DNA of 41,202 nt from Pseudomonadota bacterium (GTDB lineage: Bacteria > Pseudomonadota > Gammaproteobacteria > Eutrophobiales > Eutrophobiaceae). The notes below the pieces were generated by a model. It ran no database searches. It was given only the letters and a program-made list of their open reading frames with translations, and was not told the DNA's origin. Of this stretch, positions 5,835 to 13,684 are shown one piece after another. A program made the position numbers and the translations under genes. Each line of letters begins with the position of its first letter. The stretch's first letter is position 1. The stretch covers positions 1 to 41,202 of the forward strand of contig JACZSJ010000009.1 in the NCBI GenBank assembly GCA_022574295.1, read 5' to 3'.

Positions 5835-6071
5835 TTAGCCTTTGTGGCTACCATCACACAGGGGCTGATTTTTCGTTGCCTTACATCCACAGAAATAAAT
5901 CGCTGTTGATTCAGTTGCATCATATTGAACAGGGCTGAACTCTGTATCGGCATGAGAACCATCACAAAAAGGCTGCGTATTACTTTTCCCACATGCACAC
6001 CAGTAATAGGATTTGCCTGCCTGGACTTCAACAACAAAAGGCTTATCTGATGCTCGGGTTGGTTCACTCAT
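5835..6071 (-). CDS. Double CDGSH-type iron-sulfur protein
   Basis: A 78-residue protein with two CDGSH zinc-finger-like motifs, each of the form CxC...C-D-G-S-H: C25, C27, C36, H40 and C61, C63, C72, H76. In this family each three-Cys-one-His set holds one redox-active 2Fe-2S cluster, so two clusters are expected in one small soluble chain. The frame can be read from 6158, but the ATG at 6071 has a good ribosome binding site (GGGAG on the minus strand at 6081-6085) and removes residues that fall in a repeat. The biological role of bacterial members is not settled. Confidence 0.9.
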   Translation of the reverse strand: MSEPTRASDKPFVVEVQAGKSYYWCACGKSNTQPFCDGSHADTEFSPVQYDATESTAIYFCGCKATKNQPLCDGSHKG

Positions 6072-6145
6072 GAAAATATTCTCCCGTTTGGAAAAAACCA
6101 TATTTAAATAATAGTTCGCAAGATCAGGGTAACTGATAAATTTTT

Positions 6146-6210
6146 GATATATACCCAAGCTATCTGAACTCTGAAGCCTGTATTTCCAGGTAGTTTGGGT
6201 ATATATCCAG
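6146..6210. repeat. Dispersed inverted repeat, TACCCAAACTAC family, copy A
   Basis: Positions 6146-6162 and 6191-6208 are inverted arms (GATATATACCCAAGCTA and its near complement), giving a hairpin between the CDGSH gene and cca. The reverse complement matches the sequence at 13685-13758, including the block CTACNTGGAAAT just inside the arm. Two copies in one window make this a dispersed repeat rather than a local terminator. Confidence 0.7.
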
Positions 6211-6225
6211 TATACGGCAATTTAA

Positions 6226-7443
6226 TTATTTTCCGAGAGCTAGCGCTTCACTTATGGAATTCAATCTTTCTTTTTTGATGGCGTCTGCCATGGTTTTGCC
6301 TTTGAGACCCTGTTGATTGAGCGATTCGGTATCAATACTATTTGCAGCATCTAAAGCTTTTTTAAAATAGCCTGCCTGTGGGTAGGCACGATCTTCAAAT
6401 CCTGTACGACCCCGGGCATCGGCTTCACAACAGATCAGAAATTGATCAAAACGTTCTGGTTTTCGAAATGCATCCAGAGATTCCAGTTTTTTCAAAACTG
6501 TATCGGCATGCATTTCTTCTATACGATGACAGGTCAGGTGATGTCTGGAGACCTGTATTGCCAGGTCTTTATATTGATTGGGCGCACGGTAACGTGCACA
6601 AAGTTTTTCAATTAATTTTACACCACGTTCTTCATGACCGTGGTGACTAGGTAACTTATCTTTAGCTGTTGTCCCTTTTCCCAAATCATGAACCAGAGCC
6701 GCGAATCGAATATGTGGATCATTACTAAGACGCGCAGCCTGGTTCAGTGCCATTAAGGTATGGATCCCAGTATCAACCTCTGGATGATGTTTTTTCGGCT
6801 GGGGGACACCGAACAGTTGATCAACCTCTGGAAGAAGAATGTTCAGTGCATGACAGGCGCGTAATGCCAGTATAAAGCGTGACGGGTAAGTTTCTCCCAT
6901 AGCCCGTTCCAGTTCACTCCAGACTCTTTCGGGGACCAGTGCTTCAAGCTCGCCTGATTCTGAAATCTCCCGCATGAGGGCCATGGTTTCTGGTGCGATG
7001 CGGAAGCCAAAACGCGCGGCAAAACGTGCAACCCTGAGTACGCGTAAAGGATCTTCTACAAAGGCCGGTGATACATGACGCAGAATTTTGTTTTTAAGAT
7101 CTTCTCTGCCGTTAAAGGGGTCGATTAAACATCCTTCTTTATCTTCGGCAATGGCATTGATAGTTAAATCACGTCGTGCCAGATCTTCTTCCAGCGTAAC
7201 ATCTTTGGATGTGTGAAACGTAAAGCCTTTGTAGCCTTTCCCTGTTTTTCTCTCAGTTCGTGCCAGGGCATATTCTTCTTTTGTTTCGGGATGTAAAAAG
7301 ACGGGGAAATCTTTCCCAACGGCCTTGAAATTTTGGGTTTCCATCTCTTGCCGTGTACTACCAACGACAACCCAGTCATTATCTTTGCCTGGTTTGCCAA
7401 GCAATTTATCACGGACTGCACCACCCACAAGATATATTTCCAT
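6226..7443 (-). CDS. cca: Multifunctional CCA-adding tRNA nucleotidyltransferase
   Basis: Adds or repairs the 3' CCA of tRNAs. The product (405 residues from the ATG at 7443; a TTG two codons upstream is possible) starts [16 protein letters not shown], with the class II nucleotidyltransferase signature, the [10 protein letters not shown] acidic pair and the [12 protein letters not shown] motif near residue 90. A C-terminal HD domain ([12 protein letters not shown] and [11 protein letters not shown]) identifies the multifunctional proteobacterial form with phosphatase and phosphodiesterase activity. Full length. It is followed on the same strand by the CDGSH gene, with a repeat hairpin between. 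Confidence 0.95.
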
Positions 7444-7541
7444 CGTCAAGCATTATAGTTTATAGGATGGGTTTGCACGAGCCATCTCATCCTTAGTTTG
7501 CCTTGCCAGGCAATATCAGATGGACGGAGTACCAGATTTAA

Positions 7542-9584
7542 CTAACTGGAACAACTCATGTTAAATGGCTTTACAACTGATTTTGGGCTATAGGGATAGA
7601 TCGCTGTCATTCTTTGTTTAAGCGGAGTTATCTGCTGATTTAGACGCCAGTCGTAAATACTGGCATAAAACATGACACGTTTCACATAGGCCCTGGTTTC
7701 ATTGAATGGAATTTGTTCCACCCATATGTCAGGTTCTTTGCAATCTTTTTTGGGTGACCATTTAACCGATCGTCCAGGACCTGCGTTGTAGGATGCAGTC
7801 GCCAATATGCGGTTACCATTAAATTTGTCCAGCATCTCTTTCATATAGGCAGTACCAATCGCAATGTTTTTTTTGCCAATCAGGAGATCGCTAGTACGAA
7901 AATTTTTCAAGCCAATTTTTCTGGCGGTTAATCTGCCCGTGGCTGGCATGATCTGCATGAGGCCTAATGCACCTGCAGGTGATCTGACCTTTTCCATAAA
8001 TGCGCTTTCCGATCTCATTAAGGCAAATATCCAGCCGGTATCCAGGTTCCTTTTCTTCGCATATTTTTCTATATCATCGCGGTAGGTGATTGGAAATCTG
8101 AGCTCTAAATCATCGTAGGCATGTGCAGCAGCCATGGTAAAAATAGCGCGATCATACCATCCCCATTCCGAGGCCAGCCTTGCGGCTATTTGCTTCTGGT
8201 AATTGGTCATAGAGCGTAAGGCATATTGCCACTCACGTCTGGCCCTGTAATCACCATACAGGATAAATAATTCCCTGGCTCGGCGTATACCTGGCATATG
8301 AGCAATCTTATTTTTTACCTCAAGATCTTCCGGCAGGGGAAGATGATGCATTTGATATTCTGAGCCGATGCGATCAGCCGCAAGGAACCCATAGTAGTCA
8401 CGCTGATCCGCAATGGAAGCGTAAGATTCTTGCGCCTTTTCAAACTCTCCAATTTGTTCAAGTGCCCTGCCGCGCCAGTAGATCCAGCGATATTTGACGG
8501 ATGCTATTTCTGGTGGCGTACCCTTTGTCCATTGATAAAGTCTTTGCCAGTTCTGGTTTTTGAGTGCGGTTCGGAGACGCCAATGGAATATTTCGTCACT
8601 GTCCAGAGCCGGGTTCAAATTATCCAATAGTTCAGCAGCCCTGGGGTGTTTGTTTTTTGCTGCGCGTACGGTAATGACAAGATCAACTGCATCTATTTCG
8701 GCAGGTATAAAGCTGTAATTGGTCTGTAGTGTTTCCCAGTTACTTAAGGATCTACTGATATTTTGTCTGGCCAGTCGTTTTATGCCGTAAAGTAATATCT
8801 CCCGTGCAATTGTGGTATCCGGATACTGTGGGTTTTTAGTTCCTACCGATGGGTTATGGTGAATGGTGACCCATCGTTTTGCCCAGATCTTGTAGCCTTT
8901 ATCCAGACGTTTACTAAGATAGTTCACCAACCCGGTATTACCATTATCCATTGCTAATCGAATACGTTCCCATACCAGTTCATTTGTCATCAGATCGCTT
9001 TTGTAGAGTCGTTCAAAGGCTTGATCACATTGAGGAGGCAATGATTTTCCTGTTAGCCAGAGTGTCCGGGTGTCTTCCAGTAGATAAGTGTGATTATTGA
9101 TATTGATGCGTGCCTGCAATTGCTGGCAACGTAGTTTTAATTCCTTTTGCGGTGTGTAATTGTCCAGAAAAATTAGCCACTTTCTCTGTTTGGCAAGTTG
9201 CTTTAGCCAGCTTGTTCTCAATGAATTTGTAGAGATGAAACCAGGATATGAGGTGATGAAATCCTTAATTTCAGTATTATCAATTTTGTGAAGTCGGGGT
9301 CGCAGGTAGTTATACCGCAGATAAGGATACAGTGGATATGTTTTGAGTTTTTCAGCGAGTGTTGCAAAGGTTTTAATCTTGCCGGCCTTCAGTGCCTTCT
9401 GGGCATCAAGATATTGCTGACGTTGTTCCTCGATCATTGCCGCTGATACCTGAAGACTGACTGGGAGTAGTGAAAAAATAATGACGAATTGTAGTAATGG
9501 CCAGACCATACCCGTTCTGAGAACAGGCAGCATTCCTTTTAATAAAAAATTGTTTTGCGGGGACATCCTCATAGAGAGAGGCAA
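7542..9584 (-). CDS. slt: Soluble lytic murein transglycosylase Slt
   Basis: Cleaves peptidoglycan glycan strands in the periplasm to form 1,6-anhydro-muropeptides. The 680-residue frame starts with an over-long N-terminus; a hydrophobic signal (VWPLLQFVIIFSLLPVSLQV) ends with a likely cleavage near VSAA at about residue 50, so a later start (one of several internal ATGs) may be used. The middle is a long alpha-helical, TPR-like superhelix. The C-terminal lysozyme-like domain has ALMRSESAF with the catalytic glutamate near residue 525, GALGLMQIMPATG and ATASYNAGPGR. Length fits Slt70. The TSUP gene is divergent. Confidence 0.93.
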   Translation of the reverse strand: MPLSMRMSPQNNFLLKGMLPVLRTGMVWPLLQFVIIFSLLPVSLQVSAAMIEEQRQQYLDAQKALKAGKIKTFATLAEKLKTYPLYPYLRYNYLRPRLHKIDNTEIKDFITSYPGFISTNSLRTSWLKQLAKQRKWLIFLDNYTPQKELKLRCQQLQARININNHTYLLEDTRTLWLTGKSLPPQCDQAFERLYKSDLMTNELVWERIRLAMDNGNTGLVNYLSKRLDKGYKIWAKRWVTIHHNPSVGTKNPQYPDTTIAREILLYGIKRLARQNISRSLSNWETLQTNYSFIPAEIDAVDLVITVRAAKNKHPRAAELLDNLNPALDSDEIFHWRLRTALKNQNWQRLYQWTKGTPPEIASVKYRWIYWRGRALEQIGEFEKAQESYASIADQRDYYGFLAADRIGSEYQMHHLPLPEDLEVKNKIAHMPGIRRARELFILYGDYRARREWQYALRSMTNYQKQIAARLASEWGWYDRAIFTMAAAHAYDDLELRFPITYRDDIEKYAKKRNLDTGWIFALMRSESAFMEKVRSPAGALGLMQIMPATGRLTARKIGLKNFRTSDLLIGKKNIAIGTAYMKEMLDKFNGNRILATASYNAGPGRSVKWSPKKDCKEPDIWVEQIPFNETRAYVKRVMFYASIYDWRLNQQITPLKQRMTAIYPYSPKSVVKPFNMSCSS

Positions 9585-9712
9585 AGTATCAATAATTTTT
9601 ATTTATATCGAGTATTTTATGTGAGATATGTTGCTTTTGTTTGGGGCCCTCTTTCTTTACGCCGCAACCATCACCTATGCCATAATGGCTTGCATGATTA
9701 AACAGGCGGATC

Positions 9713-10519
9713 ATGGGGGAGAAGTTGACTGACTTAATCATCTTGTCTACTTATCTTCTGCTGGGCATGGTTGCAGGAATTGTTGGAGGCTTACTCGGAC
9801 TAGGTGGAGGAATAATTATTGTCCCCTCGCTTCTGTTCCTTTTTATGTGGCAGGGCTTACCTGCTGATGTTCTGATGCATTTTGCGGTTGCGACTTCCCT
9901 GTTCACCATTGTCTTTACTTCGGTATCTTCAAGCTATGCACACCATAAGCACAAGGCTGTCTTATGGCCTCAAGTGTTCCTTTTAACCCCGGGAATAATA
10001 GCCGGGGCAATCTTTGGTGCATTTATTGCTGATTGTTTATCCAGTGATGTTCTACGAAGGGCATTTGGAATTTTTGAAATATTTGTCGCATGTCAAATTG
10101 GACTTGCAGTGAAACCGACAATACAAAGAGTTTTGCCGGGACGAAAAGGAATGCTCTTTGCGGGGGCAGGGATAGGGACTTTATCAACTATTCTAGGGAT
10201 TGGTGGCGGGACGATAACTGTACCGTTTTTGATATGGTGCCAGATAGATATTCGAAAGGCGGTAGCAACCTCATCTGCATGTGGTTTTCCAATCGCTTTG
10301 GCGGGGACCCTGACGATGATTTTTACCGGGCTGGATTACAGCAATCTCCCAGAAAATACCATCGGATATGTCTATTGGCCAGCTGCGGTAGCGATACTTT
10401 TTACCAGTGTTCTGTTCGCGCCTGTTGGCGCAAAGCTCGCGCATACCATGCCAGTTAATTCTTTAAAGCGTGTTTTTGCGATCGTCCTGGCGTGCGTTGG
10501 GTTAAGGATGTTGTTCTAG
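9713..10519 (+). CDS. TSUP (TauE/SafE-type) membrane permease
   Basis: A 268-residue polytopic membrane protein with the TSUP repeat signature: GIVGGLLGLGGGIIIVPSLL near residue 22 and its internal echo STILGIGGGTITVPFLIW near 158, the two halves of the family's inverted duplication. About eight membrane segments. TSUP members move sulfur-containing or organic anions such as sulfite, sulfolactate or sulfoacetate; the substrate cannot be read from sequence. The CULT-domain gene follows 27 bases after on the same strand, so the two may be cotranscribed. Confidence 0.9.
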   Translation: MGEKLTDLIILSTYLLLGMVAGIVGGLLGLGGGIIIVPSLLFLFMWQGLPADVLMHFAVATSLFTIVFTSVSSSYAHHKHKAVLWPQVFLLTPGIIAGAIFGAFIADCLSSDVLRRAFGIFEIFVACQIGLAVKPTIQRVLPGRKGMLFAGAGIGTLSTILGIGGGTITVPFLIWCQIDIRKAVATSSACGFPIALAGTLTMIFTGLDYSNLPENTIGYVYWPAAVAILFTSVLFAPVGAKLAHTMPVNSLKRVFAIVLACVGLRMLF

Positions 10520-10546
10520 CGGCAAACAAAATATGCTGGAGTCATT

Positions 10547-10921
10547 ATGATATTTGATATGACTAGTGAAAATGAAACATCATCAGCGGAGCAAACGGAA
10601 CAATCTGCTGATGATAAGTCGATTATCTGCAAGATATGCAAGGCAGCCATCACCCGGCAAGAAGATCGTGTCTCGATACAGGGGCAGCACTGTCATACTT
10701 GTACTAACCCGACAGATATTACTTATACGATCGGCTGCTTCCGGGCAGCGCCCGGCTGTCGCCAGATTGGCCCGGCCAGTTTTGAACATACCTGGTTCCA
10801 GGGCTATCAATGGCAGAGTTCAGTTTGTGCAGGTTGTGGTGAGCACCTTGGCTGGTGCTTCAATAATACCGAATGTTTCTATGGTTTAATTCTGGATAGA
10901 CTGCTGTCTCAACAGTGTTAA
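10547..10921 (+). CDS. CULT-domain (cereblon-like) zinc protein
   Basis: The 124-residue product matches the CULT domain, the thalidomide-binding domain of cereblon, found alone in some bacteria. Seen in sequence: two zinc-binding CxxC pairs (CKIC at 28-31 and CAGC at 94-97) and three tryptophans in HTWFQGYQW (W83, W89) and LGWCF (W103). Human cereblon uses W380, W386 and W400, so spacing of 6 and 14 is identical. The first 22 or so residues are polar and probably disordered. In bacteria the domain is known to bind uracil-like and cyclic imide ligands in an aromatic cage; its cellular role is unknown. It lies just behind a TSUP permease gene. Confidence 0.88.
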   Translation: MIFDMTSENETSSAEQTEQSADDKSIICKICKAAITRQEDRVSIQGQHCHTCTNPTDITYTIGCFRAAPGCRQIGPASFEHTWFQGYQWQSSVCAGCGEHLGWCFNNTECFYGLILDRLLSQQC

Positions 10922-10942
10922 GGATAGATTAAAACCACAAAA

Positions 10943-11224
10943 CTAGGAGGGCTTTTTGTCAGATGCGCCAAATTTTTTCAGTTTTACCTTGCCGTTGAAG
11001 AATTGAATACTGATTCTTGCCTTACCATCATCCCATACAGAAGATTTTCCTGTTAAAGAGCCAATTCCCATGCTTGAAGTTTCATCAGGATCACCAAGAA
11101 TTTTAATCACGGCAGCTTCTTCCATACCGCTTTCAATGCGGTTGTAGTTTTCCTCCGTGACCCGGCCGCAGGCAACAAGTAATATAAAAAAGAAAAGGAT
11201 TGATAAATTTCTAATGAATTTCAT
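10943..11224 (-). CDS. BamE/SmpA-like small lipoprotein
   Basis: A 93-residue lipoprotein: basic start, hydrophobic core, LVAC with the lipidated cysteine at residue 19. The mature segment (NYNRIESGMEEAAVIKILGDPDETSS) has the helix-turn-G-x-P pattern of the SmpA/OmlA (BamE-like) fold, followed by beta strands containing VWDDGKARISIQFFNGKVKLK. It is much like the DUF3862 group. It is not BamE itself as far as I can tell. Divergent from the DUF1499 gene, with a 46-base shared promoter region. Confidence 0.75.
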   Translation of the reverse strand: MKFIRNLSILFFFILLVACGRVTEENYNRIESGMEEAAVIKILGDPDETSSMGIGSLTGKSSVWDDGKARISIQFFNGKVKLKKFGASDKKPS

Positions 11225-11270
11225 AATTTAATACCTGACAATGAGTAATCATCCGGATTCAAGTTGATCT

Positions 11271-11753
11271 ATGTTAACCAAGATAATTATTATTGTCCTC
11301 TGTTTGATAAGTATTCCTATGGTTTTGATCCTTAGCGCTTTCAAACATAACGATCTTCCGTGGACAGAGCCCCCCGGCCCCATGGCTCGAGTGAAACATT
11401 ATCTTACGACGAATGTAGCGGAAACTACTCAAGACTCTCCTTATCCTGAATTGCGTATCAGGGAATATGATTATCCTGCAGATCAGTTATTTTCATTATT
11501 GGAAGCATCAGTGGCTGAATTAGGCTGGCAAATTGATAGCCAGCGTGATCAGGCATACTCGCTGCATGCTGTCGTTACGACGCCTTTGCTTGGATATCAG
11601 GATGACGTCCACATAAGATTGATACCTGTTTCAACAAACAGGAATCAGTTGTATGTACGTTCGAGTTCGAGAAAGGGACGCGGTGATTTCGGAACTAACA
11701 CACGCCATATTCTGGATCTATACAATCAAATCGAGAAGCTGGCAGGTAAATAA
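11271..11753 (+). CDS. DUF1499 family protein
   Basis: A 160-residue protein with one N-terminal membrane segment (about residues 3-24) and a periplasmic domain of the DUF1499 type, with the strand pattern AELGWQIDSQRDQAYSLHAVV followed by DDVHIRLIPV and a C-terminal helix. No enzymatic role is established. It is separated by two bases from the next gene (stop 11753, next ATG 11756), so translation of the two is probably coupled. Confidence 0.8.
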   Translation: MLTKIIIIVLCLISIPMVLILSAFKHNDLPWTEPPGPMARVKHYLTTNVAETTQDSPYPELRIREYDYPADQLFSLLEASVAELGWQIDSQRDQAYSLHAVVTTPLLGYQDDVHIRLIPVSTNRNQLYVRSSSRKGRGDFGTNTRHILDLYNQIEKLAGK

Positions 11754-11755
11754 TC

Positions 11756-12166
11756 ATGCAGGAAACAATCAGAATCAGGACGCAAGGCAGGGGTACGGTC
11801 GATATTACCGCAGAAGTTGAAAAATTGGTCAGCCGATCTTGCGTTGAAACTGGCTTGTGCAACCTGTTTATACAGCATACCAGTGCATCACTCATTCTTT
11901 GTGAAAATGCTGATCCAGATGTGCGGGCTGATCTGGAAAATTTCATGCAGCAATTAGTCAGGGATGGTGATCCGCTATTCAGACATCGGGCAGAAGGCCC
12001 CGACGATATGCCAGCACATATACGTAATGTGTTAACCAGTTCGAGTTTAACGATCCCAATTGCAGATGGACGATGTTTGCTTGGGACATGGCAAGGAATT
12101 TATCTATGGGAGCATCGGTTTAACGCGCATATGAGGAATATTATCGTGACGATTCAAAGAGGCTAA
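11756..12166 (+). CDS. YjbQ/UPF0047 family protein
   Basis: A 136-residue protein with the complete UPF0047 signature: NLFIQHTSASLILCENADP near residue 40, FRHRAEGPDDMPAHIRN near 78 and LGTWQGIYLWEHR near 110. The histidines and the glutamate in the last motif form the family's conserved pocket. E. coli YjbQ can substitute weakly for thiamine-phosphate synthase, but the natural role is open. Directly follows the DUF1499 gene and precedes a short DUF427-like frame. Confidence 0.92.
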   Translation: MQETIRIRTQGRGTVDITAEVEKLVSRSCVETGLCNLFIQHTSASLILCENADPDVRADLENFMQQLVRDGDPLFRHRAEGPDDMPAHIRNVLTSSSLTIPIADGRCLLGTWQGIYLWEHRFNAHMRNIIVTIQRG

Positions 12167-12670: not shown

Positions 12671-13684
12671 CTAGCCGTGTTTTAGTATGATGTTCGCCAG
12701 GGCGCGCATATGTATCGGGCAATCGTTGAGTGCGGGGATGTAAGAGAACTTTTCACCGCCAGTTTGAAGAAAGAGATCTCGGTATCGCATATTGATTTCT
12801 TCAAGTGTTTCGAGGCAGTCCGCAGAAAAACCAGGACATACAATACTTACATTTTTGGTGCCTGTTGAGGCCAGCTCTTTTAAAGTTACATCGGTGTAGG
12901 GTTTAAGCCATTCTTTAGGCCCGAAGCGCGATTGAAAAGTCAGTATCCATTCCTCTTCATTCAGGTTTAATTTTTCAGCGACGAGTCTGGCTGTCTTATG
13001 ACACTCGCAATAATACGGATCACCGGCATCGAAATAGGCTTTTGGGATGCCATGAAATGAGAACAATAATTTTTCAGCGCGATGATTTTGTTGCCAATGT
13101 TCATTAATGCTTTCAGCAAGTGCATCAATATAGTCAGGCATGTCATGATAATGCTTGACCAGATGTAATTCAGGTATGTCACGCCAGGCCTTCAGAACAT
13201 CAACGACGGCATCGAATGTTGATGCCGTCGTTGATGCGGAATATTGCGGATAAAGTGGTAAGACAATAATTCTTTTTGCATTAGCTTGTTGAAGTTTTTT
13301 CAGTCCTGACTGGATTGATGGTTTACCATAGCGCATGGCTAACTCCACATGGAATTTGTCTGTCGTATGCTCATCAAGATATTTTTGGATTCCGGCTGCC
13401 TGCCTTTTTGAAATAGTCAATAAAGGGGAACCTGCCTCTGTCCAGATTTTTTTATAAGCAGCGGCAGAGCGTTTTGGTCGTGTCCGTAAGATAAAGCCAT
13501 GCAGAACGAACCACCAAATGACCCTCGGTACTTCAACTACACGGGGATCTGCCAAAAACTCTCCAAGATAGCGTCTTAAGGCCGAAGGTGTCGGCGCGTC
13601 TGGTGTGCCCAGATTTGTAACAAGGACACCCGTACAGGATTCTGAGTCGTGTTTAAAATCTCTATTGCCGATATAATTTATCAT
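12671..13684 (-). CDS. hemH: Ferrochelatase HemH
   Basis: Inserts ferrous iron into protoporphyrin IX, the last step of protohaem synthesis. The 337-residue protein has the family start GVLVTNLGTPDAPTPSALRR, LPLYPQYSASTTAS near residue 140, the catalytic histidine in LFSFHGIPKAYFDAGDPY near 205 and FQSRFGPKEWLKPYT near 250. The C-terminal part has PGFSADCLETLEE. Full length. A dispersed repeat lies immediately upstream of its start at 13685-13758, so its promoter is within or beyond that element. Confidence 0.96.
   Translation of the reverse strand: MINYIGNRDFKHDSESCTGVLVTNLGTPDAPTPSALRRYLGEFLADPRVVEVPRVIWWFVLHGFILRTRPKRSAAAYKKIWTEAGSPLLTISKRQAAGIQKYLDEHTTDKFHVELAMRYGKPSIQSGLKKLQQANAKRIIVLPLYPQYSASTTASTFDAVVDVLKAWRDIPELHLVKHYHDMPDYIDALAESINEHWQQNHRAEKLLFSFHGIPKAYFDAGDPYYCECHKTARLVAEKLNLNEEEWILTFQSRFGPKEWLKPYTDVTLKELASTGTKNVSIVCPGFSADCLETLEEINMRYRDLFLQTGGEKFSYIPALNDCPIHMRALANIILKHG

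Follow-up and report, generated by a model that had tools for sequence, protein, structure and literature searches.

A single-domain bacterial CULT protein with an intact tryptophan cage, a conserved N-terminal motif and an inherited TSUP permease neighbour

The gene at positions 10547 to 10921 of the window, by which we mean the whole 41,202-nucleotide stretch of DNA that was analysed, is virtually certain to encode a genuine bacterial CULT (cereblon-type) protein. We propose, at a rough probability of 0.5, that this protein, best explained as cytosolic and single-domain, reads cyclic imides and has a tail for docking. The TSUP permease gene directly upstream adjoins it by inheritance; the adjacency is real and old, and the permease is very probably not an obligatory partner of CULT. 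The features of the locus are the following.

6226..7449, minus strand: cca, CCA tRNA nucleotidyltransferase, upstream anchor of the gene block (NF008137, 644 bits, cut-off 451; synteny)
7542..9584, minus strand: slt, soluble lytic murein transglycosylase, upstream anchor of the gene block (PF01464, PF14718; synteny)
9713..10519, plus strand: TSUP (TauE/SafE) permease, 268 amino acids (Pfam PF01925, 4.4e-57)
10538..10541, plus strand: GGAG, from the sequence the probable ribosome-binding site for CULT, within the 27-base gap between TSUP and CULT
10547..10921, plus strand: CULT gene, 124 codons with an ATG start, encoding a single-domain protein of 124 amino acids
10550..10567, plus strand: IFDMTS, residues 2-7, short copy of the N-terminal motif (EM motif search)
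10628..10639, plus strand: first zinc CxxC, C28/C31, invariant in 40 homologues
10706..10711, plus strand: N54-P55, aligned counterpart of the Asn-Pro pair in the CULT ligand site (in 40 homologues, N54 is invariant and P55 is conserved in at least 90%)
10787..10813, plus strand: H81, W83 and W89 of the ligand cage (MsCI4 alignment; W83 and W89 invariant)
10826..10837, plus strand: second zinc CxxC, C94/C97, invariant in 40 homologues
10853..10861, plus strand: W103, third cage tryptophan, and F105, fourth aromatic residue (MsCI4 alignment, conservation)
10943..11224, minus strand: small putative lipoprotein gene, convergent with CULT and directly following TSUP in both CULT-less congeners
11271..12166, plus strand: genes for a DUF1499 protein and a YjbQ/UPF0047 protein, both in the block and downstream of CULT (PF07386, PF01894; synteny)
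12671..13684, minus strand: hemH, ferrochelatase, downstream anchor of the gene block (TIGR00109; synteny)

The protein comprises the short N-terminal motif, a disordered acidic linker at about residues 8-23 and a zinc beta-tent CULT domain at about residues 24-121, as delimited by phmmer, AlphaFold and Foldseek. The profile libraries searched contain no CULT model; the nearest Pfam entry is Yippee-Mis18 (PF03226), a related beta-tent zinc fold that scores 16.2 bits on the window protein, below its cut-off of 26.6, and the NCBIfam profile search matched nothing. Since no CULT profile matched, homology to solved chains was taken as the test of family membership. In a phmmer search against PDB chains, MsCI4 (MGR_0879), the CULT protein from Magnetospirillum gryphiswaldense (PDB 4v2y among many entries), matched residues 26-120 at 2.8e-21, and human cereblon chains matched residues 25-109, homologous to their thalidomide-binding (CULT) domain, at 8e-10 to 3e-7. 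AlphaFold assigned a pLDDT of about 97 across the domain, as opposed to 50-56 for the first 20 residues. MsCI4 structures headed the Foldseek list for this model (E about 1e-10, TM about 0.9 on the target, rmsd 1.2-2.2 Å), and a beta-tent fold is predicted on this basis. The CULT identity assigned in the preliminary description is thus upheld by homology to MsCI4 and human cereblon as well as by AlphaFold and Foldseek. The Pfam matches of the protein to Phage_capsid_2 (15.8 bits, cut-off 25) and to Cript were discarded as sub-threshold noise.

W83, W89 and W103, spaced by 6 and 14 residues, match the cage tryptophans of MsCI4 without gaps, so that the tryptophan cage is complete, as had been read from the sequence, and both zinc CxxC pairs are likewise in place. 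Across 40 homologues with a mean column identity of 37%, the three tryptophans, all four zinc-ligand cysteines and Asn54 are invariant, and no other cysteine is. At about 36% identity, the window protein and MsCI4 share the single-domain architecture, the fold, the three tryptophans, the two CxxC pairs and the NP pair; they differ in His81, which is Phe in MsCI4, in Phe105, which is Tyr101 there, and in the N-terminal extension, which unlike that of MsCI4 carries an FD motif. His81 and Phe105 presumably correspond to His378 and Phe402 of human cereblon, and the window protein may therefore offer structural studies a bacterial stand-in that is closer to the human protein. In contrast, the LON domain and DDB1-binding region of human cereblon, which we sought ahead of the CULT domain, are absent, the extension amounting to 23 residues of this 124-residue protein. 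Bacteria are not known to have a CRL4 ubiquitin ligase, and thus the window protein is not an orthologue of whole cereblon; judged by its sequence, it is not a cereblon proper, that is, a CRL4 substrate receptor. It is an ordinary member of a known family, the function of which is unsolved. That bacterial CULT proteins are without a known cellular role, as previously stated, holds for the literature searched, in which no in-cell ligand, partner or phenotype was shown for any of them; the founding paper leaves the physiological ligand open (PMC4287342).

The CULT gene starts 27 bases past the TSUP stop codon, as noted before. For the neighbourhood survey, genes were re-called in 76 loci including the window, with the CULT frame forced in; the simple gene caller overlooked the TSUP frame at two of them (L069 and L076), where a direct search shows it. 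CULT follows TSUP in four gammaproteobacterial families, directly in the window's own (f1), f98 and f219 and near-adjacently in f178, and mostly within the same gene block. In f1, f98 and f219, the upstream part of this block contains cca, usually together with slt and an NAD-epimerase gene, and the DUF1499, YjbQ and hemH genes often lie downstream of CULT. Members of the window's family that lack TSUP usually retain CULT in its unchanged position beside slt. A further small protein, encoded at 5835-6158 on the minus strand, shows by eye two CDGSH-type iron-sulfur motifs (CxCxxSxxxPxCDGSH) and was found at the same position in both congeners. In other families, CULT neighbours BatA/BatD genes, rhodanese, FIST, EF-G, a CoA-binding protein and many others; these neighbours differ between families, so that each lineage has its own arrangement, with no partner recurring throughout. 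In four genomes of f48 (L077, L079, L081, L082), a BatA-BatD type run with VWA and BatD domains directly precedes CULT, and in f67 and f70 (L083, L086, L087) a single-domain rhodanese gene follows it, in f67 with an overlap or at most 12 bases between them.

The 37 species of the window's family comprise 17 with both genes, eight with CULT only, seven with TSUP only and five with neither. Presence of the two genes is uncorrelated, TSUP being found in 17/25 species with CULT and 7/12 without it (Fisher p = 0.72); the genomes are assemblies, some of them incomplete, and all seven loci with TSUP and no CULT were read directly. CULT changed state about nine times and TSUP four times on a tree built from cca, slt, hemH and the epimerase, and TSUP was unchanged in about seven of eight independent CULT-differing pairs (0.7 same, 0.2 opposite and 7.2 without a TSUP change). 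The closest relative of the window differs from it in CULT and shares TSUP (89% identical), the cca, slt, hemH and epimerase proteins of the two being 94% identical. In both congeners, TSUP is kept and CULT is absent, and the TSUP stop runs straight into the lipoprotein gene. One genome (G402, locus L092) carries a 17-codon CULT pseudogene remnant, WLFSNDEYFYGLIRDRL, after an intact TSUP gene. At least one TSUP gene occurs in 341/369 sampled gammaproteobacterial genomes. The window TSUP also matches the transporter-like part of the magnetosome protein MamO (1.5e-19, far under the model's cut-off), which reflects a shared domain and is no evidence for magnetosomes.

Three other explanations of CULT function were weighed against that of the proposed imide reader. 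The preliminary description had hinted at a role together with TSUP, in which CULT would sense or chaperone a small cyclic or uracil-like compound moved by the permease, the two forming a working operon. The shared strand, the 27-base gap and the adjacency in at least four families speak for it, as do the binding of uracil and uridine by MsCI4 (PMC4287342) and, in a second class, the position of CULT beside a gene for rhodanese, a family that also handles sulfur. Co-transcription of the two genes in the window is possible; promoter and terminator scans of 9500-11400 were at chance level. However, the two genes occur and are lost independently, and outside the block CULT mostly has other neighbours, so that a transport link is unsupported and we regard this explanation as highly improbable. 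Of the earlier claim that the pair is conserved, the part concerning position stands, since the pair exceeds chance as an inherited block in at least four families, and the part that would tie the genes functionally does not, in the absence of joint presence or loss.

CULT might instead bind free metabolites such as uracil, dihydrouracil, hydantoin or cyclised glutamine and thereby, independently of TSUP, buffer or sense the breakdown of pyrimidines or imides. The conserved pocket residues and the published nucleobase screen of MsCI4 are in favour of such a function (PMC4287342), yet no catabolic gene recurs beside CULT, and a conserved N-terminal peptide is not obviously needed by a sensor. 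A link to D-hydantoinase was considered and rejected: the enzyme exceeded the NCBIfam cut-off in only 2/58 relatives, and the one D-hydantoinase-bearing member of the window's family lacks CULT. Overall, we judge free-metabolite binding unlikely, albeit well worth keeping in mind. A structural or enzymatic role akin to that of the beta-tent relatives MsrB and GFA, with a cage not meant for imides, draws on the enzymes among these relatives (PMC4287342). It is at odds with the invariance of those cage residues to which imides bind in solved homologues and with the lack of any invariant cysteine beyond the four zinc ligands, and appears very unlikely to us.

Whole-genome searches detected CULT in 28/58 near relatives, in 20/48 species from a small second class within the same phylum, and in 29/369 gammaproteobacterial genomes from 24/272 genera, that is, in about 8% of a class-wide sample with mostly one to three species per family. 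These searches replaced a single-sequence scan of genome contigs, which had found one relative only. In the founding paper, CULT members were mainly deltaproteobacterial, with few from alpha- and gammaproteobacteria (PMC4287342). Plasmids, phages and viral contigs yielded zero matches, which rules out CULT as a mobile cargo gene at the sensitivity of the search. In the three close CULT pairs with usable synonymous distances, dN/dS was about 0.07, 0.10 and 0.24. The roughly nine state changes in the window's family are best read as mostly losses, and this frequent loss, taken together with the low dN/dS, suggests that the function of CULT is useful yet conditional.

Most gammaproteobacterial CULT proteins carry an N-terminal motif of the approximate form [L/W][Y/Q]-hydrophobic-F-D-x-[T/S]. 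It precedes the domain, lies about 28-35 residues ahead of the first zinc cysteine and is followed by a variable linker; the window protein has a short copy, M-IFDMTS. The EM motif search with one sequence per genus (35) gave a log-likelihood ratio of 130.9, compared with a mean of 70.8 and a maximum of 77.8 in 20 shuffles, with start codons chosen by rule that may be wrong for some members. No description of the motif was found in the literature searched. As the peptide is conserved while the linker drifts, a usual sign of docking, its sequence suggests that it may dock to another molecule. Its disorder in the AlphaFold model (pLDDT 50-56) is what one would expect of a docking peptide requiring a partner. 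Folding of the motif back onto its own domain was considered and rejected, since AlphaFold models with full N-termini did not place it on the domain (pLDDT about 51-54); likewise, the bacterial clamp-binding motif was dismissed, as the pattern does not fit QLxLF.

Because of its link to aspartimide chemistry, protein-isoaspartate methyltransferase (PIMT) was picked as a candidate ahead of the search, and the class-wide test was added after a suggestive family-level outcome. At least one PIMT was present in 29/29 CULT-bearing genomes of the class sample versus 258/340 others (287/369 overall). Two or more copies occurred in 17/28 CULT-bearing genomes versus 69/226 others (p = 0.0025; PIMT-bearing genomes of at least 2 Mb only, copy numbers transcribed by hand). 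With genome size as a covariate, family-level copy number was higher with CULT (permutation p = 0.004), the families being not fully independent. Within-family contrasts outside the window's family were mixed. Within that family, the raw association with a second copy (Fisher p = 0.0097) gave p = 0.5 on the tree and is therefore not claimed. We consider the PIMT-CULT association a lead, not a result.

In the proposed cyclic-imide reader, the CULT cage would bind a cyclic imide or uracil-like ring, and the N-terminal motif would hand the cargo so captured to a partner such as a protease or repair enzyme. This cargo would most likely be a C-terminal cyclic imide on damaged proteins, an identification we favour tentatively and at less than even odds. 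The reported binding of uracil and uridine by MsCI4 keeps the small-molecule reading alive (PMC4287342); a free small imide or pyrimidine is a possible but unlikely cargo, and some other cargo is given equal weight. In work cited by a 2026 review, human PCMT1, a PIMT, is reported to generate C-terminal cyclic imides that are read by cereblon (PMC13001092), and the presence of PIMT in all sampled CULT-bearing gammaproteobacteria echoes this pair. One may speculate on a bacterial protein-damage pathway older than eukaryotic cereblon, in which PIMT would help to turn C-terminal residues of damaged proteins into cyclic imides, CULT would read these ends and the FD motif would deliver the proteins to a protease or repair enzyme, although we rate this whole scheme as improbable. 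If it were true, the human PCMT1-cereblon pair would be a ubiquitin-coupled descendant of a bacterial pathway.

Thalidomide-type drugs and many protein degraders act on a domain whose bacterial relatives are of unsolved function. The N-terminal motif and the PIMT lead make the question of this function more testable, and these two clues, together with the dropping of the transporter link, narrow the search for what CULT does.
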